From positions 1 through 36,801 of the forward strand of contig CALXTL010000020.1 in NCBI GenBank assembly GCA_944391445.1: DNA of 36,801 nucleotides. The letters are read 5' to 3'. Below the pieces are notes generated by a model. The model saw only the letters and a program-made list of their open reading frames with translations, was not told the DNA's origin and searched no databases. The stretch's first letter is position 1, and each line of letters opens with the position of its first letter. This document shows, piece after piece, positions 527 through 36,759 of the stretch. The stretch is from an uncultured Alphaproteobacteria bacterium. GTDB taxonomy: Bacteria; Pseudomonadota; Alphaproteobacteria; RF32; CAG-239. The position numbers and the translations under genes are program-made.

Positions 527-1087
527 TCATTTTCCTTTATAAACGATTTTAACATAACCAGATACACCACTGTAATTAACACCCATTTGTCCAACACCTC
601 CTGCTCCATAGCCATTATACAGGCTTGCACCGCCGGCAACGGGACCGCTTCCAGCTCTACGTTCGCCCGGATTTCCTGCTGAATTCAAAGTTGTAGATAT
701 AATTGTAGCATTAATCGTAGGCTGAGCACCGGCCGCACTACTTGTACTTCCGCGACCTCCGCCATAGGTTATTACCAAATTGCCAATTGATGATCCTGCA
801 CCATCATAACTTTGATACCTACCTCCGGCTCCTATAGATACGGATATTGTTGAAGCCTCAATTTTAATGATGCCAATAAAACCAGAGCCAGAACCGCCGC
901 CAGCGACGATCCTGTTATTTCTATTGTAATATCCGCCGCCACCACCGCCGATACAATAAACCTCATATTTTCCTTTGCCCAAAATTTCGACATTATAGGT
1001 TCCCGGTGTTGAGCTTTCAAAAATAACCTGGTCTTTCTTATACGGACCAGATTTTAATAATAAACCCTTACTCCATAATTCCATCAT
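527..1087 (-). CDS. Glycine-rich tail tip adhesin (gp38-like), paralog 3
   Basis: This 186-residue protein is one of three paralogs. The first ~45 residues (WSK..LLLK, PYKKDQVIFESSTPGTYNVE, GKYEVYCIGGG) are nearly identical in all three, so they are probably the attachment part. The rest alternates conserved glycine-rich blocks (GGGSGSGFIGII, GGASLYNGYGAGG) with highly divergent loops and ends GYVKIVYKGK. This architecture resembles T-even gp38-type adhesins, where glycine motifs form a scaffold and variable segments contact the receptor. The function is inferred from that resemblance and from position behind the tail fibre. Its start ATG lies in a folded leader downstream of a 9-G tract. Confidence 0.75.
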   Translation of the reverse strand: MMELWSKGLLLKSGPYKKDQVIFESSTPGTYNVEILGKGKYEVYCIGGGGGGYYNRNNRIVAGGGSGSGFIGIIKIEASTISVSIGAGGRYQSYDGAGSSIGNLVITYGGGRGSTSSAAGAQPTINATIISTTLNSAGNPGERRAGSGPVAGGASLYNGYGAGGVGQMGVNYSGVSGYVKIVYKGK

Positions 1088-1150
1088 CGGCCTGCCCTCC
1101 TAAAGGACAACCCCCGATGTCTTGCCGGCCTTAGGCCTTTACCCCCCCCC
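1081..1150 (-). repeat. Poly-G leader repeat, copy 1 (9 G), before adhesin paralog 3
   Basis: Reading leftward, nine G are followed by TAAAGGCCTAAGGCCGGC and then a segment ending CCGATGATGG at the adhesin start. The segment can fold CATCGG with CCGATG and TCCT with AGGA, which would cover both the AGGAGG ribosome-binding site and the start codon. The copy at 1829-1899 differs by one base and by one G. On the + strand the tract is nine C at 1142-1150. The shared region also continues into the first codons of the two adhesin genes. Confidence 0.85.
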
Positions 1151-1180
1151 GTTCGCTATTTTCATATAAAAATCAAACAT
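1139..1180 (-). CDS. Leader mini-ORF running into poly-G tract, copy 1
   Basis: A 13-codon ORF (MFDFYMKIANGGG) starts seven bases after GAGG and stops at the TAA immediately after nine G. If the tract had 8 or 11 G, the frame would stay open through the whole leader and stop in a TGA overlapping the adhesin ATG (ATGA). It is therefore more likely a regulatory leader peptide than a functional protein. Evidence is the frame geometry, repeated at the second copy; translation is not shown. Confidence 0.45.
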   Translation of the reverse strand: MFDFYMKIANGGG

Positions 1181-1196
1181 TTATTGCCTCACTTTA

Positions 1197-1835
1197 TCAT
1201 TTTCCTTTATAAACAATTTTAACGTAACCTGCGGTACCGGCATGAGCGCTTAAGTCTGCAGAAGCAGTTCCGCCTGTTCCATAACCATTATAAACAGAAG
1301 CACCGCCAGCATAGCCGCGACCAGAAGAACCAGTACCTGTTTGTCCTACATTTCCTGCAATATTTAATTCTTGTGATAATGGCACTATAGATATCTCAGG
1401 GATGGGCGCCGCGTAGGACTCGCAATAGCTGGGGTAAGATCTAACCACTGAGGCAGGAGCCCCATAAGATATTACAAAATCTTGGATTTTACTATCTCCA
1501 CCAGGATAACCAGTAAGTAAGGCTGTAGTACTAGGAACCCTTAAAGGGGCACCCCCATTTCCTACTACACAAGATAATGTAGATTTTTTTAATTTAATAA
1601 TACCCACAAAACCAGAACCAGAACCTCCTCCAGCTCTAGAGTAACGTACGTTTCCACTTATTCTTTCTGAAGTATGAGCAGCTCCGGCACCACCACCGAT
1701 ACAGTAGACCTCATATTTGCCATCGGCCAGAAGTTCGACGTTATATGTCCCTGGGGTTGAGCTTTCAAAAATGACCTGATCTTTCTTATACGGATCATAT
1801 TTTAATAATAAATTCTTACTCCATAATTCCATCAT
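1197..1835 (-). CDS. Glycine-rich tail tip adhesin (gp38-like), paralog 2
   Basis: At 212 residues this is the longest of the three adhesin paralogs. It keeps the common N-terminal ~45 residues and the C-terminal GYVKIVYKGK, but its middle (about residues 50-170) has a longer insert and quite different loops, including a YPSYCESY stretch. Conserved blocks are GGGSGSGFVGII and GGASVYNGYGTGG. Two paralogs with one mounting segment but different loops suggest alternative receptor specificities. The start codon is in a leader repeat with a 10-G tract. Binding specificity is inferred. Confidence 0.75.
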   Translation of the reverse strand: MMELWSKNLLLKYDPYKKDQVIFESSTPGTYNVELLADGKYEVYCIGGGAGAAHTSERISGNVRYSRAGGGSGSGFVGIIKLKKSTLSCVVGNGGAPLRVPSTTALLTGYPGGDSKIQDFVISYGAPASVVRSYPSYCESYAAPIPEISIVPLSQELNIAGNVGQTGTGSSGRGYAGGASVYNGYGTGGTASADLSAHAGTAGYVKIVYKGK

Positions 1836-1899
1836 CGGCTTGCCCTCCTAAAGGACAACCCCCGATGTCTTGCCGGCCTTAGGCCTTTACCCCCCCCCC
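1829..1899 (-). repeat. Poly-G leader repeat, copy 2 (10 G), before adhesin paralog 2
   Basis: This is the second copy of the adhesin leader: ten G (1890-1899), TAAAGGCCTAAGGCCGGC, the foldable CATCGG...CCGATG segment with an internal TCCTTTAGGA hairpin over the ribosome-binding site, and the ATGATG start. It is nearly identical to the copy at 1081-1150, so it was duplicated recently together with the 5' end of the gene or is kept identical by recombination. Confidence 0.85.
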
Positions 1900-1923
1900 T
1901 ACGAACTTAAGCATTTCAAGCAT
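1879..1923 (-). CDS. Leader mini-ORF running into poly-G tract, copy 2
   Basis: A 14-codon ORF (MLEMLKFVGGGVKA) starts at an ATG overlapping the end of the tail fibre assembly gene and stops at a TAA shortly after ten G. With 8 or 11 G it would read through to the same ATGA overlap with the downstream adhesin as copy 1. Its upstream sequence and first codons differ from those of copy 1, so the convergence of both on the same open frame is notable. Confidence 0.45.
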   Translation of the reverse strand: MLEMLKFVGGGVKA

Positions 1924-2308
1924 TTTCGGTATTTCCCTCCGTTATTTCCGGTTTCGGGTACTCGGCCTTAATAGCGGCAATTGTCTGTCGCCAGATGTCG
2001 GTTCCGTTAACCTGATCCCAATAAATCATATCCAACTGATCACCGACCGGCGGATATGCCGCCTGCCGCAATTCGATATAAGTCGGCTCTTGCATCGGCG
2101 GTATATCAACAAAATCAGGTACAATCCGGCTATTTTCAATCTTACAGCCCGTCTGCTGTTTTCCTTCAGGTGCCGCCGTAAAATCAACCGGCAGGTAACC
2201 GGCCGCCAGCACATTCGCCTCATTTAGCCCCCAATTGGAAACACCGGGAATATCTCTAGGAGCATATTCAAGAGTTCCGTTTTCTAAAATCTTAGCATAT
2301 TCTGTCAT
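1916..2308 (-). CDS. Tail fibre assembly-like protein
   Basis: A 130-residue protein begins MTEYAKILENGTLEYAPRD, typical of small proteins encoded next to tail fibres, and carries a C-terminal segment YPPVGDQLDMIYWD followed by a helix with AIKAEYPKP. That YPxxGDQLDxxxW pattern recurs in phage tail fibre assembly or chaperone-like proteins. AAAGGA lies eight bases upstream of the ATG. Lying between two adhesin paralogs, it may help them fold or attach. It could instead be a structural spacer. Confidence 0.65.
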   Translation of the reverse strand: MTEYAKILENGTLEYAPRDIPGVSNWGLNEANVLAAGYLPVDFTAAPEGKQQTGCKIENSRIVPDFVDIPPMQEPTYIELRQAAYPPVGDQLDMIYWDQVNGTDIWRQTIAAIKAEYPKPEITEGNTENA

Positions 2309-2314
2309 TGTCTT

Positions 2315-2866
2315 TTATCCTTTGTAAACAACCTTTATATAACCAGGCTTTCCTGAATTATTCCTAAGAAATTCTCCGTCACCACCAGCTCCGTAGCCCT
2401 CGTATAATGAAGCTCCACCTTTAGCGACACCCCCTCTAGAAGTTTCACCTCTATTTCCTGAAGAATTTAAAGTTGTAGATATGGGGATGACACTAAGGGT
2501 TGGAATAGCACCGCCACCACCTCCGCCAGCACCTCCGCCATAAGTTTTTACAATTCCAGCTATTGCAGAATTATTTCCAGGATAGCTTTGGTATCTGCCT
2601 CCAGCACCCACGGTGACATTTAATGTGCCAGCGTTAATTCTTATAATTCCTATAAAGCCAGAACCAGACCCGCCTCCCTGCATATAATCACGGCTACTAT
2701 CTCCATATCTACCTCCTCCACCTCCGGCAATACAATAAACCTCATATTTTCCTTTACCCAAAATTTCGACATTATAGGTTCTCGGTGTTGAGCTTTCAAA
2801 AATAACCTGGTTTTTCTTATACGGATCAGACTTCAATAACAAATTCTTACTCCACGCTTCCCTCAT
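2315..2866 (-). CDS. Glycine-rich tail tip adhesin (gp38-like), paralog 1
   Basis: A 183-residue member of the adhesin trio. The ATG overlaps the stop of the tail fibre gene and has its own AAGGAG, so this copy is constitutively coupled to the fibre and lacks the poly-G leader of the other two. The N-terminus (MREAWSKNLLLKSDPYKK) is slightly diverged. The body has glycine runs (GGGAGGGGGG about residue 112) and the end reads PGYIKVVYKG. It is most similar overall to paralog 3. Receptor binding is inferred from architecture and position. Confidence 0.75.
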   Translation of the reverse strand: MREAWSKNLLLKSDPYKKNQVIFESSTPRTYNVEILGKGKYEVYCIAGGGGGRYGDSSRDYMQGGGSGSGFIGIIRINAGTLNVTVGAGGRYQSYPGNNSAIAGIVKTYGGGAGGGGGGAIPTLSVIPISTTLNSSGNRGETSRGGVAKGGASLYEGYGAGGDGEFLRNNSGKPGYIKVVYKG

Positions 2867-4074
2867 TCCGCCGCTCCTTTCGGCAAGGCGCCGGCAACCC
2901 AGGCACCCAGCGCATTGTCATAATCAAAATAAAAGTCATAATTCCCGGCTTCGATTTCCGGCGTTTCTTTATTAAAGAAATTGGTTGTTCCCCAGGTTAT
3001 CACCGGTGTACCGGTAACGGCCGCCATCACCTTAATCTGGTTAAAATATCCGCCTGTCACGCTTGTCGGCAGACTGAATGTCGTATCGCCGCTGATGCTC
3101 ATTTGATAGATTTTGGTTGTTTCCAGCGTAACCGTCCCGGAAGTTTCCGCAATCTGAACAATCGGCTGCTGATAATCGGCTATTGCCTCGCCGGCAGCAC
3201 TGACAGCCGCAACAGCGCTGTCTTTAGCGGTATTGATACCGGCAACGGCAGCGGTCTCGGCCTCATCAGCCATGGTTTCAATTGCTGTTTTTTCCGTGGT
3301 CGCCAAAGTGCTGATTTCGCTCTTTGATGTATTGGTAAGCGTGGTAATCTCGCTTTTGGCAGTGCTGACCGTGGTATCAAAATCACCAAGTTCGGTTACC
3401 GCCTGATTAGCCAGATTTTTGGCTTCCTCCGCCGCCGCAGCACTCGCCGAGGCCTGACTTGCAGATGTTTGCGCAGCGCTTTCACTAAGAGATGCGGCAT
3501 TCTGGCTGTTTAATGCCTCAGCAGCCGAAGCAGCCGCGGCATCGGCTTTGTCTTCTGCCCTGTCAGCTTGAGCGGTTACCTCGGCAACGGTATCATCAAG
3601 ATTAATGCTTGAGTTTGTTAAGGCATCACCTTCTTGATTCCACACCAAAGCCTTTCCAGCTGATGGAGCCGGCAAATTAAGATCAACCCCTGTCATACCG
3701 ATGGGAATTTTTGGACTACGCTCACTATCATCTGCCAACTGCTGTGTGATTGCCGTCAGTTTATCAAGGTTTTCTTCTACCCTATTCGCCGGAAATCCGC
3801 TTGATGTTTTATACGGCGTTTCTTGGTTTAACGGTACACTACGCCCGACAACGATATATGTTCCGGCGGCCGGAGCAGTCTTAAACACTACATTACCGCC
3901 GTTTACATCAAACTCAACCGTATATAAGCCAGGATCAACCAGTGTCTGAACACCGTCAGCCTCCTGATAAACAGCTGCATATTCACTGTTAATCATATCA
4001 TACGTAAAAGTAAAGCTTGTGGTAACACCGTTAGCCAATTGTCTTGTAGGATTGTAATTATTTGCTAAAGTCAT
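2863..4074 (-). CDS. Tail fibre with T7 gp17-like N-terminal domain
   Basis: A 403-residue fibre. Residues 1-120 match the pattern of the T7 tail fibre N-terminal domain that docks on the tail tube: NGVTTSFTFTYD, YTVEFDVNGGNVVF, AAGTYIVVGRSVPLNQETPY and FPANRVEENLDKL. Residues ~165-300 are an Ala/Ser/Glu-rich coiled coil forming the shaft, and the last ~100 residues are a beta-rich distal part. It is the first gene after a late promoter-terminator unit and is followed without a gap by adhesin paralog 1, so it probably carries the adhesins at its tip. Confidence 0.88.
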   Translation of the reverse strand: MTLANNYNPTRQLANGVTTSFTFTYDMINSEYAAVYQEADGVQTLVDPGLYTVEFDVNGGNVVFKTAPAAGTYIVVGRSVPLNQETPYKTSSGFPANRVEENLDKLTAITQQLADDSERSPKIPIGMTGVDLNLPAPSAGKALVWNQEGDALTNSSINLDDTVAEVTAQADRAEDKADAAAASAAEALNSQNAASLSESAAQTSASQASASAAAAEEAKNLANQAVTELGDFDTTVSTAKSEITTLTNTSKSEISTLATTEKTAIETMADEAETAAVAGINTAKDSAVAAVSAAGEAIADYQQPIVQIAETSGTVTLETTKIYQMSISGDTTFSLPTSVTGGYFNQIKVMAAVTGTPVITWGTTNFFNKETPEIEAGNYDFYFDYDNALGAWVAGALPKGAAE

Positions 4075-4086
4075 CGTTTTCTCTAT

Positions 4087-4113
4087 AAAAAAAACGCTGT
4101 TCAGACGAACAGC
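4087..4113 (-). terminator. Intrinsic terminator before tail fibre gene
   Basis: Reading leftward, GCTGTTC-GTCT-GAACAGC forms a perfect seven-pair stem followed by G and eight T. It lies about 45 bases downstream of a consensus promoter and just upstream of the fibre ATG, so it should stop transcription unless antitermination occurs. Confidence 0.85.
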
Positions 4114-4121
4114 AGATAAAC

Positions 4122-4152
4122 AAAAAGAGAGCGGCTTTTAATGCCTACTCTC
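4122..4152 (-). promoter_or_regulatory. Leader hairpin of late unit A
   Basis: GAGAG and CTCTC pair, with an inner GGC/GCC, and T5 follows. The surrounding leader (TTTAG-TATGGTGGGAGAGTAGGC then AAAAGCCG) aligns with the leader before the terminase genes. It may be a weak terminator or a recognition element for an antiterminator. Confidence 0.6.
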
Positions 4153-4166
4153 CCACCATACTAAAA

Positions 4167-4196
4167 AATATACCTTAGGGGTGACCCCGTTGTCAA
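4167..4196 (-). promoter_or_regulatory. Late promoter A with GGGGTGACCCC palindrome
   Basis: On the minus strand TTGACA (4191-4196) and TATATT (4167-4172) are 18 bases apart. The spacer holds the palindrome GGGGTGACCCC (4178-4188), which also occupies the spacer of the promoter before the terminase genes. A shared regulator binding site between -35 and -10 is the simplest reading. Confidence 0.75.
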
Positions 4197-4247
4197 GAGT
4201 TTTTTACCACCACCCGACAACCCTGCCGGCAACCGGCATTTCCAAAA

Positions 4248-4352
4248 TCAGGGAAAAGATAAAAAATTAACCATTTGTTTACCCCCCCCCGTATGGTTTT
4301 TAGACAGGCCAAAAGCTAAGAAGACCAAGTAGTACAGCGTTATTATATCCAT
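4248..4352 (-). CDS. Short ORF with in-frame 9-G tract
   Basis: A 34-codon ORF has an excellent ribosome-binding site (AAAAGGAGG, seven bases before ATG). It encodes a hydrophobic start (MDIITLYYLVFLAFGLS), then reads through nine G (4282-4290) as Gly-Gly-Gly followed by Lys, ending FLSFP. The G-tract plus TAAA is the third occurrence of the motif found before the adhesin genes. Slippage would change the C-terminus. It lies in the ~350-base region between a membrane gene and the tail fibre promoter. Function unknown. Confidence 0.45.
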   Translation of the reverse strand: MDIITLYYLVFLAFGLSKNHTGGGKQMVNFLSFP

Positions 4353-4427
4353 TTTGCTACCTCCTTTTGGCCTTGGGATATAATCTTCAGCTTTACCTTT
4401 TCAAGAGCATAAACTCCCAAAGTATCC

Positions 4428-4760
4428 TTATCTTTCTTGCTTGTATGCTTTTTTCCAGTCTAGAAACAATGCTACCATTACAACCGCAAAAACAGCAAAA
4501 CGATATGTAACTATAATAGCAAAAATCCAATTATAATCAGGCAAAAAATAAATTCCATATAACGCCAAAAGGTAAAATATTGCCATATTAAAAGGAATTA
4601 TTAATAGGAAAGCCATAATAAAAGCACATAAAATAAATTCAAAAGAAAACCAGCTATCATGGCCTCCCAATAATTCGTCCAACCCCCAATAAGCAAAAAA
4701 ATACAAAAGTGCTGAAGAAATTAAATAAAACGATGTCGAAAAAAAAGAAAATATCTTCAT
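4428..4760 (-). CDS. Integral membrane protein, about three TM segments
   Basis: A 110-residue very hydrophobic protein has aromatic-rich membrane segments (about residues 5-25, 40-70 and 78-100) and a basic C-terminal tail (DWKKAYKQER). Its ATG overlaps the stop of the upstream membrane gene and AAGGA precedes it. It lies between the internal virion genes and the tail fibre, where accessory (moron-type) genes are often found. No family is recognised. Superinfection exclusion or envelope modification is possible but unsupported by any motif. Confidence 0.65.
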   Translation of the reverse strand: MKIFSFFSTSFYLISSALLYFFAYWGLDELLGGHDSWFSFEFILCAFIMAFLLIIPFNMAIFYLLALYGIYFLPDYNWIFAIIVTYRFAVFAVVMVALFLDWKKAYKQER

Positions 4761-5053
4761 TTTTTATCCTTCCCGGCAAAAAAGACACAAAACAAAATAA
4801 ACAGCACAGTGATAAAATTGATAAATACCCAAACCTCTCGCTCAAAACCAACTTTTATGATTGGATTATACAAAAGGGCGACAAAAAGAAACAGGATATT
4901 CACAAATGAAAGCTGTTCTTGCGGATAACGCAGATAAAAAATATACCCGGCATATCCACAAACACACAGTCTCAACAACGTATAATAGCCATACGGCATG
5001 GGAAGAAAACCTAACACCAATATACAACAAACCATTAAAGTTAAACTTTTCAT
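4757..5053 (-). CDS. DUF6804-like small membrane protein
   Basis: A 98-residue protein from the ATG preceded by GGAG at six-base spacing (an in-frame GTG 15 bases upstream is less likely). The sequence LPMPYGYYTLLRLCVCGYAGY, then LLYNPII and REVWVFINFIT, matches the pattern of the DUF6804 family of small three-helix membrane proteins (P-Y-G-Y-Y, N-P-I-I and R-E-x-W signatures). The biochemical role of that family is not known to me. It is coupled to the next membrane gene. Confidence 0.65.
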   Translation of the reverse strand: MKSLTLMVCCILVLGFLPMPYGYYTLLRLCVCGYAGYIFYLRYPQEQLSFVNILFLFVALLYNPIIKVGFEREVWVFINFITVLFILFCVFFAGKDKK

Positions 5054-5115
5054 CATTTTCTCCACCACTATAAGATTTGTTGTTTACCTTATCCCATGGT
5101 CATAAAATAGTCAAT

Positions 5116-8100
5116 TTATTTCAGTTTCGTTTTGTTCTTTTTCTCCAGTTTGGTGCGGCCGCCGCCCCACCACCAATAATATGGCCGACCGGCCAACGGC
5201 ACATTTTTCCAAGTATTCCAGTCAGCAATCTTTTTATCACTCAAAACATCAACAACTAATTCATCTAACATAACCGGAAACATAAGCTGTTTTTGTAGGG
5301 TTTTGAACAACCCTTCACGTTTGACGTTCATAGCCTGATAACGATTGATAGATCCGCCAATGAAGATATTATCTACCAGTGTATCCGGAACATTAATTGG
5401 CCGACCGAACAGTAAATCTTTTAAAACATCAGCTCCGGCGTTGAACAACATCAGATATCCGGTCAATCTGATCATATCGACCACCGCCTTACGCGGATTT
5501 GTTTTTGCCGTTTCAAAACAAATCCTGCGATATTCATTAAGCTGTTTAATAAAATAAGATTTCATCATATAAAACAGCCTCTTTTTACCACCCTCGGCAT
5601 AATACCGTGGCATCTGGTCGATGGTAATCGGCTGAACATCCATAAGCTGAAACATGGCATATTCCATAATCTCATCAGTTATGGCGCCGGTTTTCATATC
5701 CTCCCTGACATCGACCCATTTTTCGCCAAACTCCTGTCGCAGATAGGCTTCTAACTCCGGTTTTTCGGCTCTTGCATCTGCTCTGGCTTTTCTGATAGCC
5801 GAATTAACCAGCGTTTGTTTGGCAATTTTATCCATTTTTTCAAAGCCGGTATATTTCAACACTTTATCCAAAGCCTTGGACCAGGCGCTCGTGTCTGTAA
5901 AGCTGCCGTCCTGAATAATCTTGCCTAGTCCTAAATCATCAATCGTAATTTCAGACTTTCCTCGCCAAGCCTTCGCATATTCAAATACCGTATTCCACAA
6001 ACCGTTTTTATAGGCTGAGGTTCCGAGGTCGCCGAACTGTGTGATTGCGCTTTCAAAGTTTCCCAGCGTCCAAATATATCCGCCGTCGCGAACAAGACGC
6101 CAAAACTCGTTACCTAAACCCTGATTAGAAAAACGCGCCAATAACAATTCTTTTAAGCGCAATTCCTGTGTATGACTGATCTTTCCCTGTTCTGCCATTT
6201 CCAGAAGCAGATTGCCGACCGAATTTTCAATCGTACTGTCTGCTAAGTCATCTACTTCTTTTTTGACCTGTGCCAGTTCAACTTCCATTCGGTTAATCGC
6301 AATTTCTTTGACCTGTTCGGCTCGGCGGTTGCGCAAAAATTCAACTTCGGCCTCAAGTTTGGTTTTGCGGTCTTGTAATTCGGCCTTAACATCTTTATTA
6401 TAAGTGTTTCTTATTTGCGCCTCTACCGCGCCGATTTTGTAATTACGTGTCTTAATTTCTTTCCATTTTGCTTCTTTCGGCTCCATTGCTTTGTATTCCG
6501 CGATTGTTGTCTCGCGGTTTGCCACCATTCGGCGCAGGTTTTGCAATTCCTTGGTTTCTTTGCCAAAATATTTTTTATTCTCAATCATCTGAACCGCGCC
6601 TGATATATAATCGATCAAAGCATCAGTCGAAACTTTGTAAAAACGATTCATATGCTGATCAACAACATCAATCGAACGTTCTTTGATATTCCCGATTTTG
6701 GCAATACTTATACCGCCGGCATAACCTCTTATTAATGAATTGACAATCTGTGCTTCGTCTTCTTTGGTCCTAATTCGTCCGTCTTTGCGCTTTTCCTCAA
6801 TCATTTTCTGAATGATGGAATATTCCGGCCGACCGCCGAATTCCTGTTCCACATAATCAAGCAACCCATCGGCATTCTTAATCTTACGCGGAAAATAATC
6901 CGGAAGATAAGCAACATCCACACCGACATCAATCATCTGTTCACGCAAATCATCCAAAATATTTCTGACTTCCGCAAAACTATCCTCCAGAGCATATTTT
7001 TCCAACAAACGCTGCACTGTGTCGACATCGCGATTTTTCAAGGCAAGATCAAAAGTGTAGAAATCCGGTGTATCCATTTTCTGCATACCGTCCACAAAGC
7101 CCTTAATCCGCTTATAATACGCGCTTGTTTTCTGCAGCTTGTCAATCTCCAACCGGCGGTTCATATTATACAGCTCCGGTGAAATCTGCTTTATTTCCTC
7201 TTCCAACGGAACAATAGCATCAGACAAATAATTGCGCATGTCGGTATAAACATTTTGTATTGTTTCCCGGCCGCGCTTAAATAACCGTACAGAAGCTTTT
7301 TTTGTTTCAATATTCTGCTTATAAATATCATCCATCGCCTCGCGTTTTGCTTTCCAATATTTTTTGGTATTGCCCAAAACCTCACTAACCGGAGCGTCCA
7401 TATATTTGTCCAAGTCAGCGCCACCTAAAATATCGCCATAAACGCTGCGCACTTCATCGTTCAGCTTAACATTCAGCTCTTTTGCCGTCTTATAAAGCTG
7501 CCGCATCCAGTTCATAAAGGCATCAAACACCCGTTTAAGATAAGTACTTGGCGCTTTGCCTTCGCGCAAATATTGTTCAAACCCGCGGGCAAATTGCTCT
7601 GTCTGTTCTACTGTATAAGTTGCTCCATCGCTTCCTAACCAGTCATTAATCGTTTCTAACATTTTAGCAGATTTTTCGCTGGTCGGCGCAAAGGTCTTTA
7701 ATTCCTCAAAGAAAAAATGCGCAGTCTCGTGCATAAAGGTTGAAGCATCAGCCCGCTCAAACAGTGAAATCACCGCCCGACGGTTTATCCTCTGGCTGTA
7801 TGCGCCTTTGGGATCCCGATATAATGTCTGGTCTTGATATACCGTCTTGACAATATCAGATTTTTGAAGTATATTATTTAAAGAGTTCGACAGAGTTTTT
7901 GCTTGCGGCCGCAATTGGAGCGAGTCAAGCGCCTGGGAACTCGGAGCCTGCACCAGTTGAGCATTGGGTCTCAACGACAGGCTTATTTTTTTATCCTTTA
8001 CATATTTAACGCGGTTATCATCTAAAGCCTTTGAAAACATATTCTCTATTTTATTTTTACCATAAAAGCTGGTAATGAAATGATATTTTCCAGAATCTGT

Positions 8101-10554
8101 CAAAGACAATGCTGCAATCATTTGCTTTCCATCCTTATCCTTAGCATCTAAAATTGCTACATAAGCATTAGGATTGGTTGACTTGTCTGATGATTTTAAT
8201 ATGGCAAGAGGATCAGCAAAAAGTTCCGGTAAACTTTCAACAACATTCATTGGAACATTATGTTTCTTAATTGTGTCTTTGATAATAATCTTTTTATTAG
8301 TTGCCACTTTTCCGGCTGGAATTCCTATTTTTTCATAAACAATAGGCAGTTTTCCTAAACGAATAAAAACATTTTCCCCTATTGCTGACCGCTCGGCCGC
8401 CCGCAAATCATTAATATAAGTACTTTTATCCTGATTTGAAGGCGAAAATGCCGGCTGCTGAAACCAGGCCAAACCATTATCTCCGGTATCTTCCTGTCCC
8501 ATTTCTTCATTATAGGCGCGCTGCCGTTCCATATAGGCATCAACCGCCATCTCAATTTCCGGGGCTTCCATATTGCGCCAGTCAATATCCATGCGATCTA
8601 AATCTTCGGCCAGTTGGTTGACTTCATTTTCCAGATTATGCGGCGCCTCTTTATTATACCGTTTACGTCCACCAAGTTCTTCGTTAATAGCTTCCAGTAA
8701 ATCATTAACCGTCGGCCGTTCGCTGCTTTGCGGAAAATATCCGGCTTCCCACGCCGCCAATGCCATATCGTCGAGATTCAGACCGTTTTTATTGTTAATT
8801 AAGCCAATAACCTGTTTGCCGGCATCCATCGCTTTTAATTCGCCGCCAAAATCTTTTAATCCGCCGTTTTGTTTCAAAAACTGCGTCAGGCTTTGACGGG
8901 TATCTTTGACTTTATGCCCTTTCAGAAGAGCTGGATTTTTTAAAGCCTCATATAAATTGATTTCGGCAACCTCGCCGGCGCGTTTTGCTTCGTTAAAACG
9001 TCTGGCGAAGTCCAGATATGCAACTCTTTCAATCCGAGGAAACCGCTGCTCAAAATATTCAAGAGGCGAAATTCCCAACTCTTGGCTTCCCCATAAAGCA
9101 ACCCCTTGAACAACTTTTGCCTGAGCTGCGGCAACTTTGTCGGTATCACTTGTCTTAATCTGGTCAAATACACGATTATAAACTTCTTCCAAATCAGCTT
9201 TAAGTTGTAAAGATTTTCTCACCTGCTCAGTGTTTCCGTTTTCCTGCGCAAAAGTATTAATATCGTTTATCGTATTCTGTAAATTCTTCTGAAATACGGT
9301 ATTAAAAGCCTCCGGGTGCTGTTTTAGTTTCATCTCGGTAGCGCGACGGTATTTCTCAACCTCCGCCTCTTTGGCGCCCAATTCAACAGCTCTTTGCTTA
9401 GCTCTTTCATAGTTTCTGTTAGCATAATAGGCCGACAACGCCGACGCGCCGCCCATGGCTGCCGCGCCGCCAAGCGCGCCGATCATCGATTCAACAACCC
9501 CCTCAAACAAATCCTGCTCGGCGTCAATCCCGATTTTTCTAACCAGATTTTCCGCAAATGTTTGTTGTAATCCTTCGGTTATCGGCTCTTTTATAGCCGC
9601 TTTGGCTATTTCTTTGCCAACTTCTTTTGCGGTTAATCTGGCACCGGTAGCAATATTTTCCGGCAGCGGTGCAAACCAGCGGTCAATCATATAAGTTGTT
9701 GACGCATTGAGCGCCGCCAGAGTATTTGCTTTTTCCTGGTCGCCGTCTTTTTCCAGGCTTTCTTTAAATACGGCGGCACCGCCTGCCCCTGCCATAAACC
9801 CGTATGCCGCTTTTGCACCGAATAGTCTGGCTATGGGGCTTATAACCACAACCTGCCCAAAACCATGTCCGGCCACACTGCCGATTTTCCCTAATGACAA
9901 TCTTCCGCCTCGGCTTTCGCCGGATTTTGACCTCAGCAAATCAATATCACCCATATATGCCGATACATTGTTAAACATATCCGAAAGCCCCAAAAAGCTC
10001 TCAGCCATATCATTGGTGTTTTTATTGTCCGGATCTTGCATATTTTTACCCAGCCAATAAAAGATATCTGATGCCATTTTAGGTGTGTTTGAAACAATTT
10101 CGCTTGCCGCGCCCTTGGCCGCCTCTTTGGCAAAAGCGCCCCATGTATCGTTTTGATCCGGTGTCGAAAACTCATAAAGCTCTTGCTCTTGTTGTCTTGT
10201 AGCCATAGCCTGGCTCATATTCCGCAAATTTTCCCCTACGGCGGCGCCGGTTCTCAATATTGTTTTGGGAATTTCTGCACCGTACTCACCGATTGTTCCG
10301 GCGTTTGTTACCAGACTTTTACCCATATTATAAGCCAAATTAGACGAAGCTTCCATTGCCGTGTTTTTGGCCAAGCCGGACCATCCGACCATTCCGGCCA
10401 CCGAGTTAACAACATTAAGCAGGGCTCTCTGCGGATTAAAAGAATTTGATATATCTCGTCCTTTCACTTTGGTCAGATCAGGCTGTGCCACGTCAACCAG
10501 CTCAAAAGTGGCTTTTTCTTTGGCTTCGGGTTGCACATCTACAAGTTTAATCAT
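5116..10554 (-). CDS. Large internal virion / ejection protein with HETAH metallopeptidase-like motif
   Basis: This 1812-residue protein is encoded right after two internal virion genes, as the largest ejected core protein is in podoviruses. Visible features are a glycine/alanine-rich segment around residues 330-380, long helical and coiled-coil regions (about 1050-1450), and ADASTFMHETAHFFFEEL with HETAH at residues 942-946, the HExxH zinc-binding pattern of metallopeptidases. Phage large polyvalent proteins often carry such a segment. It probably enters the cell with DNA and helps cross the envelope. Peptidase activity is inferred from the motif alone; a distal third ligand was not identified. 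Confidence 0.8.
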   Translation of the reverse strand: MIKLVDVQPEAKEKATFELVDVAQPDLTKVKGRDISNSFNPQRALLNVVNSVAGMVGWSGLAKNTAMEASSNLAYNMGKSLVTNAGTIGEYGAEIPKTILRTGAAVGENLRNMSQAMATRQQEQELYEFSTPDQNDTWGAFAKEAAKGAASEIVSNTPKMASDIFYWLGKNMQDPDNKNTNDMAESFLGLSDMFNNVSAYMGDIDLLRSKSGESRGGRLSLGKIGSVAGHGFGQVVVISPIARLFGAKAAYGFMAGAGGAAVFKESLEKDGDQEKANTLAALNASTTYMIDRWFAPLPENIATGARLTAKEVGKEIAKAAIKEPITEGLQQTFAENLVRKIGIDAEQDLFEGVVESMIGALGGAAAMGGASALSAYYANRNYERAKQRAVELGAKEAEVEKYRRATEMKLKQHPEAFNTVFQKNLQNTINDINTFAQENGNTEQVRKSLQLKADLEEVYNRVFDQIKTSDTDKVAAAQAKVVQGVALWGSQELGISPLEYFEQRFPRIERVAYLDFARRFNEAKRAGEVAEINLYEALKNPALLKGHKVKDTRQSLTQFLKQNGGLKDFGGELKAMDAGKQVIGLINNKNGLNLDDMALAAWEAGYFPQSSERPTVNDLLEAINEELGGRKRYNKEAPHNLENEVNQLAEDLDRMDIDWRNMEAPEIEMAVDAYMERQRAYNEEMGQEDTGDNGLAWFQQPAFSPSNQDKSTYINDLRAAERSAIGENVFIRLGKLPIVYEKIGIPAGKVATNKKIIIKDTIKKHNVPMNVVESLPELFADPLAILKSSDKSTNPNAYVAILDAKDKDGKQMIAALSLTDSGKYHFITSFYGKNKIENMFSKALDDNRVKYVKDKKISLSLRPNAQLVQAPSSQALDSLQLRPQAKTLSNSLNNILQKSDIVKTVYQDQTLYRDPKGAYSQRINRRAVISLFERADASTFMHETAHFFFEELKTFAPTSEKSAKMLETINDWLGSDGATYTVEQTEQFARGFEQYLREGKAPSTYLKRVFDAFMNWMRQLYKTAKELNVKLNDEVRSVYGDILGGADLDKYMDAPVSEVLGNTKKYWKAKREAMDDIYKQNIETKKASVRLFKRGRETIQNVYTDMRNYLSDAIVPLEEEIKQISPELYNMNRRLEIDKLQKTSAYYKRIKGFVDGMQKMDTPDFYTFDLALKNRDVDTVQRLLEKYALEDSFAEVRNILDDLREQMIDVGVDVAYLPDYFPRKIKNADGLLDYVEQEFGGRPEYSIIQKMIEEKRKDGRIRTKEDEAQIVNSLIRGYAGGISIAKIGNIKERSIDVVDQHMNRFYKVSTDALIDYISGAVQMIENKKYFGKETKELQNLRRMVANRETTIAEYKAMEPKEAKWKEIKTRNYKIGAVEAQIRNTYNKDVKAELQDRKTKLEAEVEFLRNRRAEQVKEIAINRMEVELAQVKKEVDDLADSTIENSVGNLLLEMAEQGKISHTQELRLKELLLARFSNQGLGNEFWRLVRDGGYIWTLGNFESAITQFGDLGTSAYKNGLWNTVFEYAKAWRGKSEITIDDLGLGKIIQDGSFTDTSAWSKALDKVLKYTGFEKMDKIAKQTLVNSAIRKARADARAEKPELEAYLRQEFGEKWVDVREDMKTGAITDEIMEYAMFQLMDVQPITIDQMPRYYAEGGKKRLFYMMKSYFIKQLNEYRRICFETAKTNPRKAVVDMIRLTGYLMLFNAGADVLKDLLFGRPINVPDTLVDNIFIGGSINRYQAMNVKREGLFKTLQKQLMFPVMLDELVVDVLSDKKIADWNTWKNVPLAGRPYYWWWGGGRTKLEKKNKTKLK

Positions 10555-23062: not shown

Positions 23063-23096
23063 GGAAAAATGAACCGCCTTTTGAGCCCACTTTTCC
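23063..23096 (-). promoter_or_regulatory. Leader hairpin of late unit B
   Basis: GGAAAA pairs with TTTTCC around an AAAAGGCGG-containing loop. The leader from TTTAGGTATGCTGG to AAAAGGCGGTTC aligns with the leader before the tail fibre gene; the outer stem is kept there with different bases (GAGAG/CTCTC), suggesting structure is under selection. Confidence 0.6.
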
Positions 23097-23109
23097 AGCA
23101 TACCTAAAT

Positions 23110-23138
23110 TTCTATCACAGGGGTGACCCCTGTGTCAA
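23110..23138 (-). promoter_or_regulatory. Late promoter B with CACAGGGGTGACCCCTGTG palindrome
   Basis: On the minus strand TTGACA (23133-23138) and ATAGAA (23110-23115) are 17 bases apart. The spacer is filled by a palindrome with perfect nine-base arms around one central base (23116-23134). Its core GGGGTGACCCC is shared with the promoter before the tail fibre gene. Confidence 0.75.
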
Positions 23139-23168
23139 GACCTTTTTTTCAAGGCAGCAAAAATTTTA

Positions 23169-25581: not shown

Positions 25582-26027
25582 CGGCGATTTTCCCTCTCAA
25601 CAATCAGCGCAACCGGTGACACACGCCAAAACGCGGCAAAGTCAAATAACGATTTTACCGTCAGATCGTCCTGCTTGCCGGTGCGCAACTTGTGCAGCGT
25701 GACACAAAGCGAATGAGGCATTGCCTTTTCATACCGCCGCTCCGCTGCCAAACGCAGCAACGGCGCCAAAGAAATATCGGTCGCGGTGGTGGCAGCATCG
25801 CCCTGATGTCCCGTCAGCAGATATTCCGGCGACACCCCCAGCACCGCCGCCATTTTGACCAACCGCCGCACCTTGGGGACAACAAATTGATTTATCTGGA
25901 TGCTCCACCGGTGCGGCCGGCCAAAAATCAAGCGGCTGAACTGCGTTATGCGCAAGCCGCGCGCTTCTCTTGCCGCCTCAATCCGGTCAAGCACCGCCAA
26001 CCCCTGATAATAGCTTTCATCGCTCAT
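25578..26027 (-). CDS. Double XRE-type HTH regulator
   Basis: A 149-residue protein appears to hold two Xre/Cro-like HTH domains. The first, residues ~12-72, reads RIEAAREARGLRITQFSRLI then VLGVSPEYLLTG. The second, residues ~88-145, reads LAAERRYEKAMPHSLCVTLH then FAAFWRVSPVALIV. Both end in the V-S-P hallmark. It overlaps the methyltransferase gene and has GGAG nine bases upstream. It may regulate early-to-late switching or bind the palindromes in the late promoters; neither is shown. Confidence 0.65.
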   Translation of the reverse strand: MSDESYYQGLAVLDRIEAAREARGLRITQFSRLIFGRPHRWSIQINQFVVPKVRRLVKMAAVLGVSPEYLLTGHQGDAATTATDISLAPLLRLAAERRYEKAMPHSLCVTLHKLRTGKQDDLTVKSLFDFAAFWRVSPVALIVERENRR

Positions 26028-27210
26028 TTTTTACCGCTCCTTTAAACAAAGCTCTGGCAATAGCCTCAGGGACCGGCACGCTCACAGCGTTGCCGAGTGC
26101 TTTATACCTGACGCTGTCTGACATAATTTTTCCTGCACCGTCCGATTGCGTCCATTCGTCAGGGAACCCTTGCAAACGCTCGCATTCAAGCGGTGTGAGC
26201 TTACGGATAGCCTGGCCGTCATATATTCCTGGATTATCGCGTGCGGTCAGCGTGAAAGACGGTTCACCGCTATTTTTGAACACGCGGCCATTCTGTTTTT
26301 TATTTGTAAAGCTCGGGGTAATAACGGAGCAAACCATATTGTTTTGCTGGAATGCGTTTGCGGTTATAGTTGGGCACGATCCGGAATGAAAGCCCCCGTA
26401 ATTTTTGCCGCGTGGATATGTAAATATTTTAGGCTCAAGATTGCCGCCGGAGAGCGCATTCAAGCATGGGGCGGATCCATCAACCGAATAAACCCGATCC
26501 TGCTGGTGGTTTTTTGGTGTACGATTTATTTGTTTGACTTTTTGTAGCCGTTGACTTTCAACAACATACGACCCGTTTCCGACGTTGTCGCCGTAAGTGG
26601 CGGTAATGCAGAGAGCCTGCTCGTTTGATACGACAGAAGCCGACGGGTTGCCGCCTCCGAGAGGAAATATTTGGCGGCCGGCGAAGGCTCCAGTACATCC
26701 GACAAAGTAAACCCGCTCGCGATTTTGGGGTAAAAACCAGTCAGTATCGACAAGTTGCCATTGGCACTCATAACCCCCAAGGTCGGCAATCTCTTGCAAA
26801 AATCGGACAAAGTCGCGTCCTCCGTGACTTGTAAACAGCCCTTTGACGTTTTCAAAGATAAAAACATCAGGTCGCAGCTCTCTAATACACCGGATTGCCT
26901 CAAAGAACAAGCCGCTTCGCTCGCCGTCAAGACCTCGTCTTTTTCCAGCAATGGACAAATCTTGGCAAGGAAATCCCGCAGCAAGGACAAGCGGCACACC
27001 TTGCTCTCTTTGCTTAATTCGGGAAAAATCTCTAATTGCTGTGACATCTCCTAATTCCTCCGCGTCTTTGAAGTGTTTTTTATAGATAGAGATCGGACCA
27101 GGCGCAACCTCGGCAAAATAATGCGCTGCAAACTCCAGCCCGGCGCGCCGGAATCCTTCGGCAAAGCCGCCTATGCCCGAAAAAAGGTCAACCAGCACAA
27201 TCTTGGTCAT
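26017..27210 (-). CDS. DNA cytosine-5 methyltransferase
   Basis: A 397-residue C5 methyltransferase with all main motifs: I, VDLFSGIGGF (residues 7-16); IV, GFPCQDLS with catalytic Cys82; VI, ENV (120-122); VIII, QNRERVYFVG (162-171); IX, RKLTPLECERLQGFP; X, YKALGNAVSVPV. The target-recognition region is residues ~185-330. No restriction endonuclease lies nearby, so it probably protects phage DNA from host restriction or affects regulation. Its ATG overlaps the upstream small ORF stop and has AGAGG. Target site cannot be read from sequence. Confidence 0.93.
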   Translation of the reverse strand: MTKIVLVDLFSGIGGFAEGFRRAGLEFAAHYFAEVAPGPISIYKKHFKDAEELGDVTAIRDFSRIKQREQGVPLVLAAGFPCQDLSIAGKRRGLDGERSGLFFEAIRCIRELRPDVFIFENVKGLFTSHGGRDFVRFLQEIADLGGYECQWQLVDTDWFLPQNRERVYFVGCTGAFAGRQIFPLGGGNPSASVVSNEQALCITATYGDNVGNGSYVVESQRLQKVKQINRTPKNHQQDRVYSVDGSAPCLNALSGGNLEPKIFTYPRGKNYGGFHSGSCPTITANAFQQNNMVCSVITPSFTNKKQNGRVFKNSGEPSFTLTARDNPGIYDGQAIRKLTPLECERLQGFPDEWTQSDGAGKIMSDSVRYKALGNAVSVPVPEAIARALFKGAVKNER

Positions 27211-35512: not shown

Positions 35513-35632
35513 ATGACTAAAACACCTGAAGAATTGACAGCAGAGTGGAAAGCGGGAAAACTCCCTGCTGATGATCAGACATTCAGTGCAGCGATTGCCG
35601 CTTTAAACTTATTCGGCGCAAGGTGTGCATAA
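35513..35632 (+). pseudogene. Probable truncated phage gene overlapping integrase 3' end
   Basis: A 39-codon frame starts MTKTPEELTAEWKAGKLPAD, a start found in longer phage proteins, and then runs antiparallel into the last 58 bases of the integrase gene. The homology-like part stops near the integrase end, which suggests that recombination replaced the rest of the gene with the integrase segment. It may also be a real short protein. Confidence 0.45.
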
Positions 35633-36759
35633 CGCATTGTCATCTCAATCGTGTCATGCCCCATCAGCTCTTTGACCGTATACAAATCAACCCCCGCCAT
35701 CACCAGCCAACTGGCATATGTGTGCCGGCAGGTATGAAACACCACCTTTTCCCGCGGATCATCAATATTCTGATTAAAAAGCCTGTCGACAATCCGATAA
35801 TACTGGTCGGATATTTCGGTCAGCGGCTCGCCGTTTTTTTGCCGAAAAATATAATCTTGCGGCTTCAAGCGCAATTCCTCAATCCGCCGCGCAAACATAT
35901 TCCTGACAACATCCGGCATCGGGACGCGTCTGTTTTTAGAGTTTTTCGGATCTTTAATTGATATGAAATTAGTACCGAAATCAATATCATAGACTTTAAG
36001 CTGGCGAATTTCCCCGGCGCGAAAACCGCAATAAACCGAGGCCAAAACCATTTCATAGAGTTGGCTGAGCTTATTCTTTTTATAATAATCGGCGCCGAAA
36101 TCTTTTTTCTGACAAGAAATTTTTTTTAACTCTTTAAGCAAAATGTCGCTTTCTTCTTTGGTAAAAAAGCGGATTCGGCGGTTGTCATATTTCGGCCGCT
36201 TCACCGATGTTAGCGGATTCTTCCCGTCATAGATATTTTCCTGCCGTGCCATATTAAACATATGGCTGAGATGCGCCAAAACCCTTTCGGCCGTGGCCGG
36301 TTGACGGCCGGCATCAAGAACGCTTCTTTTGACTTTTTCGATATCCGCCGGCGTGATATCCCCAAGTCGCTTATCCCCGATAAACGGTTTCGCCCATTTT
36401 TGATAACTGTTCGCTTTGCCGTCGTTCTTTTTAATATAAACCGGATTATATATATTGCAAAAAAACTCATCAAAAGTCATATTTTGAGACTTTTTTCGTT
36501 CCTCAAAGCTGGTATTCCGATATTTTTCGGCCAAAGACGTATAGCCTTCGCCTTTTTTAATATGCTCGCGAATGGTCTCAATTTCGGCGGCGGCTTTGGT
36601 TTCCGTAAACCCTTCCGATTCCCAGCCGAAACCCTCTTCCCGCTGGCGGCCGTTAACAGTATAGCGCAAATAGAAATACCGGTCTTTGCGCACGCCGTTT
36701 TTCCGCGTCGGATGTTCGCGGTAATATACGCCCTTATGCTTACCCTTAATCCTGTCCAT
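35575..36759 (-). CDS. int: Tyrosine-recombinase phage integrase
   Basis: A 394-residue integrase. Residues ~8-70 are an arm-binding AP2-like domain (GVYYREHPTRKNGVRKDRYF). Residues ~95-185 are the core-binding SAM-like domain. Residues ~195-394 are catalytic, with Arg247 (YCGFRAGEI), His342 and Arg345 (HTCRHTYAS), His368 (LMGHDT) and Tyr377 (MTMRYAHLAP). It is complete. It reads leftward against the right early operon, so the two collide at its 3' end. AGGGG before ATG lies inside a tandem repeat. Confidence 0.95.
   Translation of the reverse strand: MDRIKGKHKGVYYREHPTRKNGVRKDRYFYLRYTVNGRQREEGFGWESEGFTETKAAAEIETIREHIKKGEGYTSLAEKYRNTSFEERKKSQNMTFDEFFCNIYNPVYIKKNDGKANSYQKWAKPFIGDKRLGDITPADIEKVKRSVLDAGRQPATAERVLAHLSHMFNMARQENIYDGKNPLTSVKRPKYDNRRIRFFTKEESDILLKELKKISCQKKDFGADYYKKNKLSQLYEMVLASVYCGFRAGEIRQLKVYDIDFGTNFISIKDPKNSKNRRVPMPDVVRNMFARRIEELRLKPQDYIFRQKNGEPLTEISDQYYRIVDRLFNQNIDDPREKVVFHTCRHTYASWLVMAGVDLYTVKELMGHDTIEMTMRYAHLAPNKFKAAIAALNV

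Follow-up and report, generated by a model that had tools for sequence, protein, structure and literature searches.

What is the function of poly-G tracts that lie between the called genes of a tail operon, each directly ahead of the leader of a putative adhesin gene? The question is raised by a 36,801 nt stretch of DNA, referred to throughout as the window, that forms the whole of contig C20 in the assembly of an uncultured alphaproteobacterium (genome G000; 1,449,511 bases in 25 contigs). An earlier inspection of the sequence alone (the original prediction) had proposed that slippage in these tracts turns the downstream adhesins on and off. Our analysis indicates that the two tracts probably are on/off switches of the adhesin genes, acting via frame-gated translational coupling; on the best reading of the evidence, the switch works through neither the coding frame nor the promoter of the adhesins themselves.

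Poly-G tracts precede two putative distal adhesin genes

Both genes encode glycine-rich proteins that presumably function as adhesins, and each is preceded by a small open reading frame (mini-ORF), a tract and a leader containing a Shine-Dalgarno (SD) motif. The mini-ORFs were identified by reading the frames; tracts, leaders and SD motifs were read off directly.

527–1087, minus strand: distal glycine-rich adhesin gene 1, putatively gated, 186 aa (Pfam Gly_rich_2, E 2.1e-6; PHROG 863 'tail fiber assembly', E 2.3e-9)
1088–1141, minus strand: leader 1, tract to ATG, 54 nt
1096–1101, minus strand: AGGAGG SD motif of gene 527–1087
1142–1150, minus strand: poly-G tract, G9
1139–1180, minus strand: mini-ORF 1 at the present count, 13 aa, MFDFYMKIANGGG
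1197–1835, minus strand: distal glycine-rich adhesin gene 2, putatively gated, 212 aa (by paralogy; PHROG 8139, unknown function, E 4.7e-4)
1836–1889, minus strand: leader 2, tract to ATG, 54 nt
1844–1849, minus strand: AGGAGG SD motif of gene 1197–1835
1890–1899, minus strand: poly-G tract, G10
1879–1923, minus strand: mini-ORF 2 at the present count, 14 aa, MLEMLKFVGGGVKA

The tracts of nine and ten residues, the near-identical leaders and the separate mini-ORF start codons at 1180 and 1923 had all been claimed in the original prediction, and each is borne out: the leaders are identical at 53/54 positions, and the first 150 nt of the genes that follow them at 129/150. The ATG of mini-ORF 1 is preceded by GAGGCAATAA; that of mini-ORF 2 overlaps the stop codon of the gene at 1916–2308 (ATGCTTGA), which is the probable source of ribosomes for this mini-ORF.

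Only six tracts of at least eight G residues are found in the whole genome, yet three of them are in this contig, which comprises 2.5% of the assembly (binomial P ~3e-4), and all three genomic occurrences of the exact string G9TAAA lie in the window. The number and placement of the window tracts exceed chance; furthermore, as they appear long enough to slip and are otherwise rare in the genome, they have the makings of contingency loci.

One register of three is open and ends on the adhesin start

Reading every register of the two leaders bore out the claim that only a count of 3n+2 keeps the frame open throughout, and that its TGA then overlaps the adhesin ATG (ATGA). The present counts stop early, in two different frames as had been described: G9 falls 51 nt short of the adhesin ATG and G10 43 nt short. 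Since a TAG lies in the adhesin frame at -15, no register fuses a mini-ORF to the adhesin.

Folding is predicted to hide the adhesin starts

Part of each leader had been suggested to be capable of concealing the SD motif and start codon. Folding of the 46 nt stretch over the SD and ATG, compared in each case with 200 shuffles, agrees with this suggestion.

1082–1119, minus strand: hairpin taking in the SD and AUG of gene 527–1087 (-18.9 kcal/mol; z -3.34; 0/200 shuffles as good)
1830–1867, minus strand: hairpin taking in the SD and AUG of gene 1197–1835 (-19.2 kcal/mol; z -3.52; 0/200 shuffles as good)

In both predicted structures the SD lies in an 8 bp stem and the AUG in an outer one, with the 5' arm of the helix starting at -32; the stop codons of the shut registers, 43–51 nt upstream, fall ahead of this arm. 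The energy needed to open the region from -20 to +15 was computed as 19.5 and 19.7 kcal/mol for the two gated starts, against a mean of 9.3 (standard deviation 3.3; maximum 15.7) for 20 other starts in the window, these controls being selected minus strand genes and not the full set. Once the sequence upstream of -20 is omitted, the opening energy of the window leaders drops to ~7 kcal/mol.

A proposed model of frame-gated coupling

Under the explanation we favour, the G count would set the frame in which ribosomes cross the leader. In the open register, a ribosome would melt the hairpin, terminate at the TGA on the adhesin ATG and reinitiate; in the two shut registers it would stop short of the helix, and the adhesin would stay off. 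Slipped-strand replication could alter the G count and so produce phage populations whose members differ in the distal adhesins on display. With the counts as they stand, the two distal adhesins would both be switched off, whilst the proximal adhesin gene of the same operon (2315–2866) has no tract.

The layout recurs in phages of other genera

Relatives of the adhesins (E <= 1e-5) were detected in 17 of 153 genomes of the order, and runs of at least seven G residues were sought in the stretches around the matches in 16 of these, G140 being left out. An intact tract lies near an adhesin relative in G000, G100 and G061, and an interrupted one in G025. Two phages of other genera in the same bacterial family, those in G100 and G061, share the layout with mostly different leaders, an observation that is new here.

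The locus in G100 consists of AAAGGAGG, a mini-ORF (MLENRRNL), a G11 tract, a 66 nt leader and the adhesin gene. G11 is a shut count, there is again a single open register, and fusion is excluded by a TGA at -39. The operon also holds a proximal adhesin copy that, like the one in the window, is not preceded by a tract; its start in G100 is easy to open (9.0 kcal/mol). The third genus, represented by G061, has a 445 aa open reading frame (ORF) with an adhesin-like N-terminal part that crosses a G10 tract and an 85 nt leader; at the present count it is open, its terminal ATGA falling on the start of the next glycine-rich gene. The two remaining registers stop 67 and 75 nt before the ATG. Another contig encodes a protein, P0121, in which the open register is also found as far as the end of the sequence, 11 residues beyond the GERS motif. 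The DNA around the tract is shared between G100 and G061, with 87% identity over about 52 bases. A further site, in G087:C15 (L126, L132), resembles the region of the G100 mini-ORF and tract over 38 bases (85% identity) and lies next to a G10 run; no adhesin was recognised nearby.

Genome G025, which is of the same genus as G000 and includes a 47,641 base contig (C24), shares the window cassette. Its leader is equally long, with 41/54 positions equal to those of leader 2, and it keeps 14/15 hairpin pairs as well as the overlap of the mini-ORF with the upstream stop. The tract is interrupted (GGGGAGG), and the adhesin frame is lost after ~80 residues; a near-identical intact protein exists (P0040).

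Conservation of the ATGA overlap had been put forward as a check on the original prediction. It is found in G061, but the open-register stop in G100 falls 11 nt beyond the ATG and not on it, and the frame in G025 stays open to 50 nt beyond the start. In the window and in G061, an upstream stop thus coincides with a downstream start in one register of three, as might be expected of a termination-reinitiation site. Fusion of the mini-ORF to the adhesin coding frame was also considered, and is excluded by in-frame stops in all four leader types.

The gated starts are predicted to be hard to open in these relatives as well (20.4 kcal/mol in G025, 16.1 in G100 and 18.5 in G061), such that every gated start exceeds all the controls. 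That of G100 folds at -22.6 kcal/mol (z -3.33; 1/200 shuffles as good). The structure predictions hence support a start that is hidden in the absence of upstream translation in the window and G100, and do so weakly in G025 and G061.

The significance of the register pattern was judged from 20,000 dinucleotide shuffles of each leader. Requiring equally early stops in both other registers, in addition to a single open register without fusion, leaves 3.1% (window), 4.0% (G100) and 2.4% (G061) of shuffles, although this criterion was chosen post hoc and the leaders of G100 and G061 are related over their first 16 nt (15/16 equal). The pattern is weak evidence in any single leader, and supports the model across the leaders together.

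In viral_contigs, relatives of the window adhesins were found neither with a single protein nor with a profile of the three window paralogues; the G100 adhesin matched three loci and a wider profile four, representing four distinct contigs together, and the scanned stretches of those contigs (L117–L119, L138, L139) contained no run of at least seven G residues. The pattern GGGGGGGTAAAGGCC matched 11 loci in the same collection, judged by eye to be unrelated, and two other leader patterns matched none. Among phage records the G061 peptide had no match, and two matches to the window leader, each with an E of 0.5, were not used. Across the 153 genomes, STAG9 occurs in nine places against five for the reversed control, which is no clear enrichment, and three of the nine are adhesin gates; GGAGG-ATG-G8 gives 12 rows in seven genomes against three control matches, the sole adhesin gate among them being that of G100.

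Tract lengths and poly-G in the host family

A contig from another sample (L136) matches G061 at 99.6% identity across 6.3 kb, with an 11 nt tract (G7TG3) where G061 has G10; the other differences between the two are mostly in one patch of the next gene. The contig from a third sample (L137) breaks off a single base short of the G061 tract, as would be seen with mixed counts or poor reads. A difference of a single residue is found elsewhere in the genus. The window has a gene at 26017–27210 that we label C5-methyltransferase-like, with relatives in G007 and G017, two species of the same genus; at these two loci, which are 95–96% identical, G007:C136 (L143) has G8 and is open for 335 codons and G017:C2 (L144) has G9 and is shut after 99, whilst the window has no G run at that position. 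Hence poly-G tracts in prophages of this genus do vary by one residue from one close copy to another. A G10 run in G037:C10 (L120) lies within a methyltransferase-like ORF of 232 aa beside a long ORF, a candidate coding-frame contingency gene.

The string G8TAAA occurs at 59 sites in 40 of 152 family genomes, against nine for the reversed pattern, an imperfect control in that it holds ATG. Of the 29 sites that were read, seven have TTGAC no more than 15 nt upstream of the tract, and some others are in reading frames. At L039, L043, L055, L056, L057, L059 and L060, a poly-G run of 8–11 residues is found between TTGAC and TAAA[AC], and such sites look like phase-variable promoter spacers. The window tracts are neither of this promoter-spacer kind nor of the in-gene, reading-frame kind.

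Evidence against the coupling model

A number of observations weigh against frame-gated coupling. The original claim that slippage switches the adhesins is supported in part, by the exact layout, by its recurrence in G100 and G061 and by the predicted hidden starts, but each of the two window tracts was read in one copy and at a single length. The altered tract of L136 holds a T, and there is a substitution 15 nt further on, as in read errors. The host has a 904-codon MutS frame, so that slippage rates would be modest; a host lacking mismatch repair was considered and rejected on the same grounds. Twelve of the 16 genomes with adhesin relatives show no tract nearby, and in G025 the hairpin is retained whilst a mutable tract is absent. 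Taken alone, a single open register with no fusion arises in 47.8% (window), 28.9% (G100) and 29.6% (G061) of shuffles.

The structural predictions also vary between leaders. The G061 hairpin is no better than those of shuffled sequences (z -0.64; 51/200), and that of G025 is slightly better (z -1.39). The hairpin shows no covariation, as no pair has changed on both sides among the three sequences. Without the upstream leader the opening energy remains at 18.6 kcal/mol in G100 and 17.7 in G061, and hence in these cases the start could be opened only by a ribosome arriving at the start itself. Finally, the G061 tract alters the C-terminus of the 445 aa protein, which could be its real target.

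Alternative explanations

It is unlikely that the tract acts as RNA within the leader, either by forming a structure that depends on its length or by serving as target for a small RNA rich in C/U, with the frame being irrelevant. Graded, length-dependent control by a leader G repeat is established in Helicobacter pylori for tlpB and RepG, and the window tracts of nine and ten residues are within the 7–12 G range of repression given in the part of PMC8295292 that covers it. However, all the tracts are in mini-ORFs with entry sites, and an RNA-only mechanism does not require the ATGA found in the window and G061; a scan of the window against Rfam gave no small RNA match, no other small RNA search having been made.

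An ordinary leader with a G run near a frame, produced by chance or as an artefact of assembly, is similarly improbable. Chance alone often leaves one register of three open, and G runs are poorly read and assembled, as the end of L137 illustrates. On the other hand, the tracts are rare and clustered, their placement is the same in two further phages, and all five gated or formerly gated starts are harder to open than all 20 controls.

The tract might instead be merely the border of joined or duplicated leader-plus-adhesin cassettes, its length having no regulatory meaning, a view to which we attach little probability. In the window, the two cassettes match from the tract onward but diverge just upstream of it, the G087 site resembles the G100 tract region without being tied to an adhesin, and adhesin modules have been shuffled, P0005 being an example. 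Yet window cassette 2 and G025 also have in common the mini-ORF start and its overlap, both of which lie upstream of the tract; in G100 and G061 the shared DNA extends to either side of it; and a border leaves the hidden start and the open register unexplained. As to the shuffling itself, P0005 joins a G100-type start (MGFRTGLHPLGGG) to a window-type adhesin body, as judged against P0032, P0053 and the window adhesins, and it seems that start modules are swapped between adhesins.

A porA-like promoter spacer, whose length sets transcription, is very improbable: the window tracts are followed by TAAA, as are the seven family sites with TTGAC, but TTGAC is absent from the 15 nt upstream of all three window tracts, and a scan for sigma-70-type promoters listed no site spanning tract 1 or 2.

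Genomic context

The window has an integrase-like ORF at 35575–36759 and structural genes across much of the minus strand ('integrase' and 'prophage' being our own labels). On that strand the tail operon runs from the tail fibre gene through the proximal glycine-rich gene and the gene for a 130 aa protein to the two distal glycine-rich genes.

1916–2308, minus strand: 130 aa protein upstream of mini-ORF 2 (PHROG 9114, unknown function, E 1.8e-12)
2315–2866, minus strand: proximal glycine-rich adhesin paralogue without a tract, its start overlapping the stop of 2863–4074 (ATGA)
2863–4074, minus strand: tail fibre gene (PHROG 1640 tail protein, E 3.7e-15)
4248–4352, minus strand: third mini-ORF, 34 aa at the present count, with a strong SD (AAAAGGAGG), holding the third tract
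4282–4290, minus strand: third poly-G tract, G9, overlooked in the original prediction

The three glycine-rich proteins are paralogues, the 212 aa protein being 59% and 54% identical to the other two; it has no match to Pfam. A structure model of the 186 aa protein, built from a 45-row alignment (mean pLDDT 92.7), has as its best Foldseek matches the fiber of cyanophage Pam3 (E 1.3e-5; TM on query 0.53) and also the Bxb1 tail tip (E 1.3e-4; TM on query 0.46), each with a root mean square deviation of about 10. These predicted similarities fit a distal tail protein. A search of PDB sequences with the adhesin profile gave no match.

No gated gene start was found for the third tract. The region 4080–4400 matched only the window itself (plus a 74% identical copy of part) and a 21-base sequence among the 153 genomes, which left no counterpart of this tract for comparison. 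The third mini-ORF is hydrophobic, and sits between small membrane-protein-like ORFs (4428–4760 and 4757–5068) and the tail fibre gene. Upstream of the tail fibre gene lie a strong sigma-70-type promoter, TTGACA-18-TATATT (4196–4167), and its leader; their 74% identical copy at 23066–23147, near the start of the late genes, looks like a duplicated late promoter. A protein of virion size (1812 aa; 5116–10554) has a MuF_C domain (PF18819, E 1e-18). Scans of the window for Rfam families and tRNAs found none.

Relation to known switches and implications

To our knowledge, the change brought about by known repeat-driven switches falls on the gene's own coding frame, on its promoter or on a small RNA target. 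In Campylobacter phages the tract reportedly sits within the coding frame. The receptor-binding proteins of the Campylobacter Fletchervirus phages undergo poly-G phase variation, as documented in the passages of PMC11959909 that summarise Sorensen et al. (2021, Cell Rep. 35:109214), and work on Campylobacter phage poly-G is cited in the corresponding parts of PMC10877375 and PMC11868660. The window resembles the Fletchervirus case in having poly-G in the receptor-binding module of a phage, with a proposed bet-hedging of host recognition. It differs in that the tract is in an upstream mini-ORF which no register fuses to the adhesin, a tract within the coding frame being found in neither the window, G100 nor G061, and in that the window loci are known from one copy each, whereas PMC11959909, in those passages, documents variation.

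The closest known leader-borne G repeat, as portrayed in the relevant part of PMC8295292, is that of RepG and tlpB-hp0102 in H. pylori, likewise in the mRNA leader, outside the gene it controls, and variable in length. Control there is exerted by a small RNA and is graded by length, unlike the register-dependent model for the window, in which ribosomes act on the mini-ORF. The poly-G promoter spacer of Neisseria meningitidis porA, as outlined in portions of PMC3639595, similarly governs a surface protein from outside the coding frame, but acts on transcription, and promoter hexamers were not detected around tracts 1 and 2. In its ATGA overlap and predicted hidden start, the window arrangement is like translational coupling in which the stop codon overlaps the start codon, covered in sections of PMC3711429 as one type of frame transition. 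Unlike known fixed coupling, in the window model a repeat would decide whether coupling occurs. No description of a repeat-driven switch acting through translational coupling was found in the literature searched, which left out most subscription papers, and priority is accordingly not established.

We tentatively suggest, as a real possibility short of a likelihood, that mini-ORF, mutable poly-G and start-hiding leader together constitute a transferable gate, placed before spare tail adhesins of unlike phages in one bacterial family, at which slippage would switch the adhesin by ribosome traffic alone, with no change to the promoter or to the sequence of the adhesin. If frame-gated coupling is correct, it would represent a contingency switch based on termination-reinitiation. 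Such a gate would leave the adhesin sequence intact in both states and could precede any gene; since the tract sits between called genes, it is easily missed by annotation. The bet-hedging of phage receptor binding through poly-G would then extend to the phages of uncultured alphaproteobacteria.
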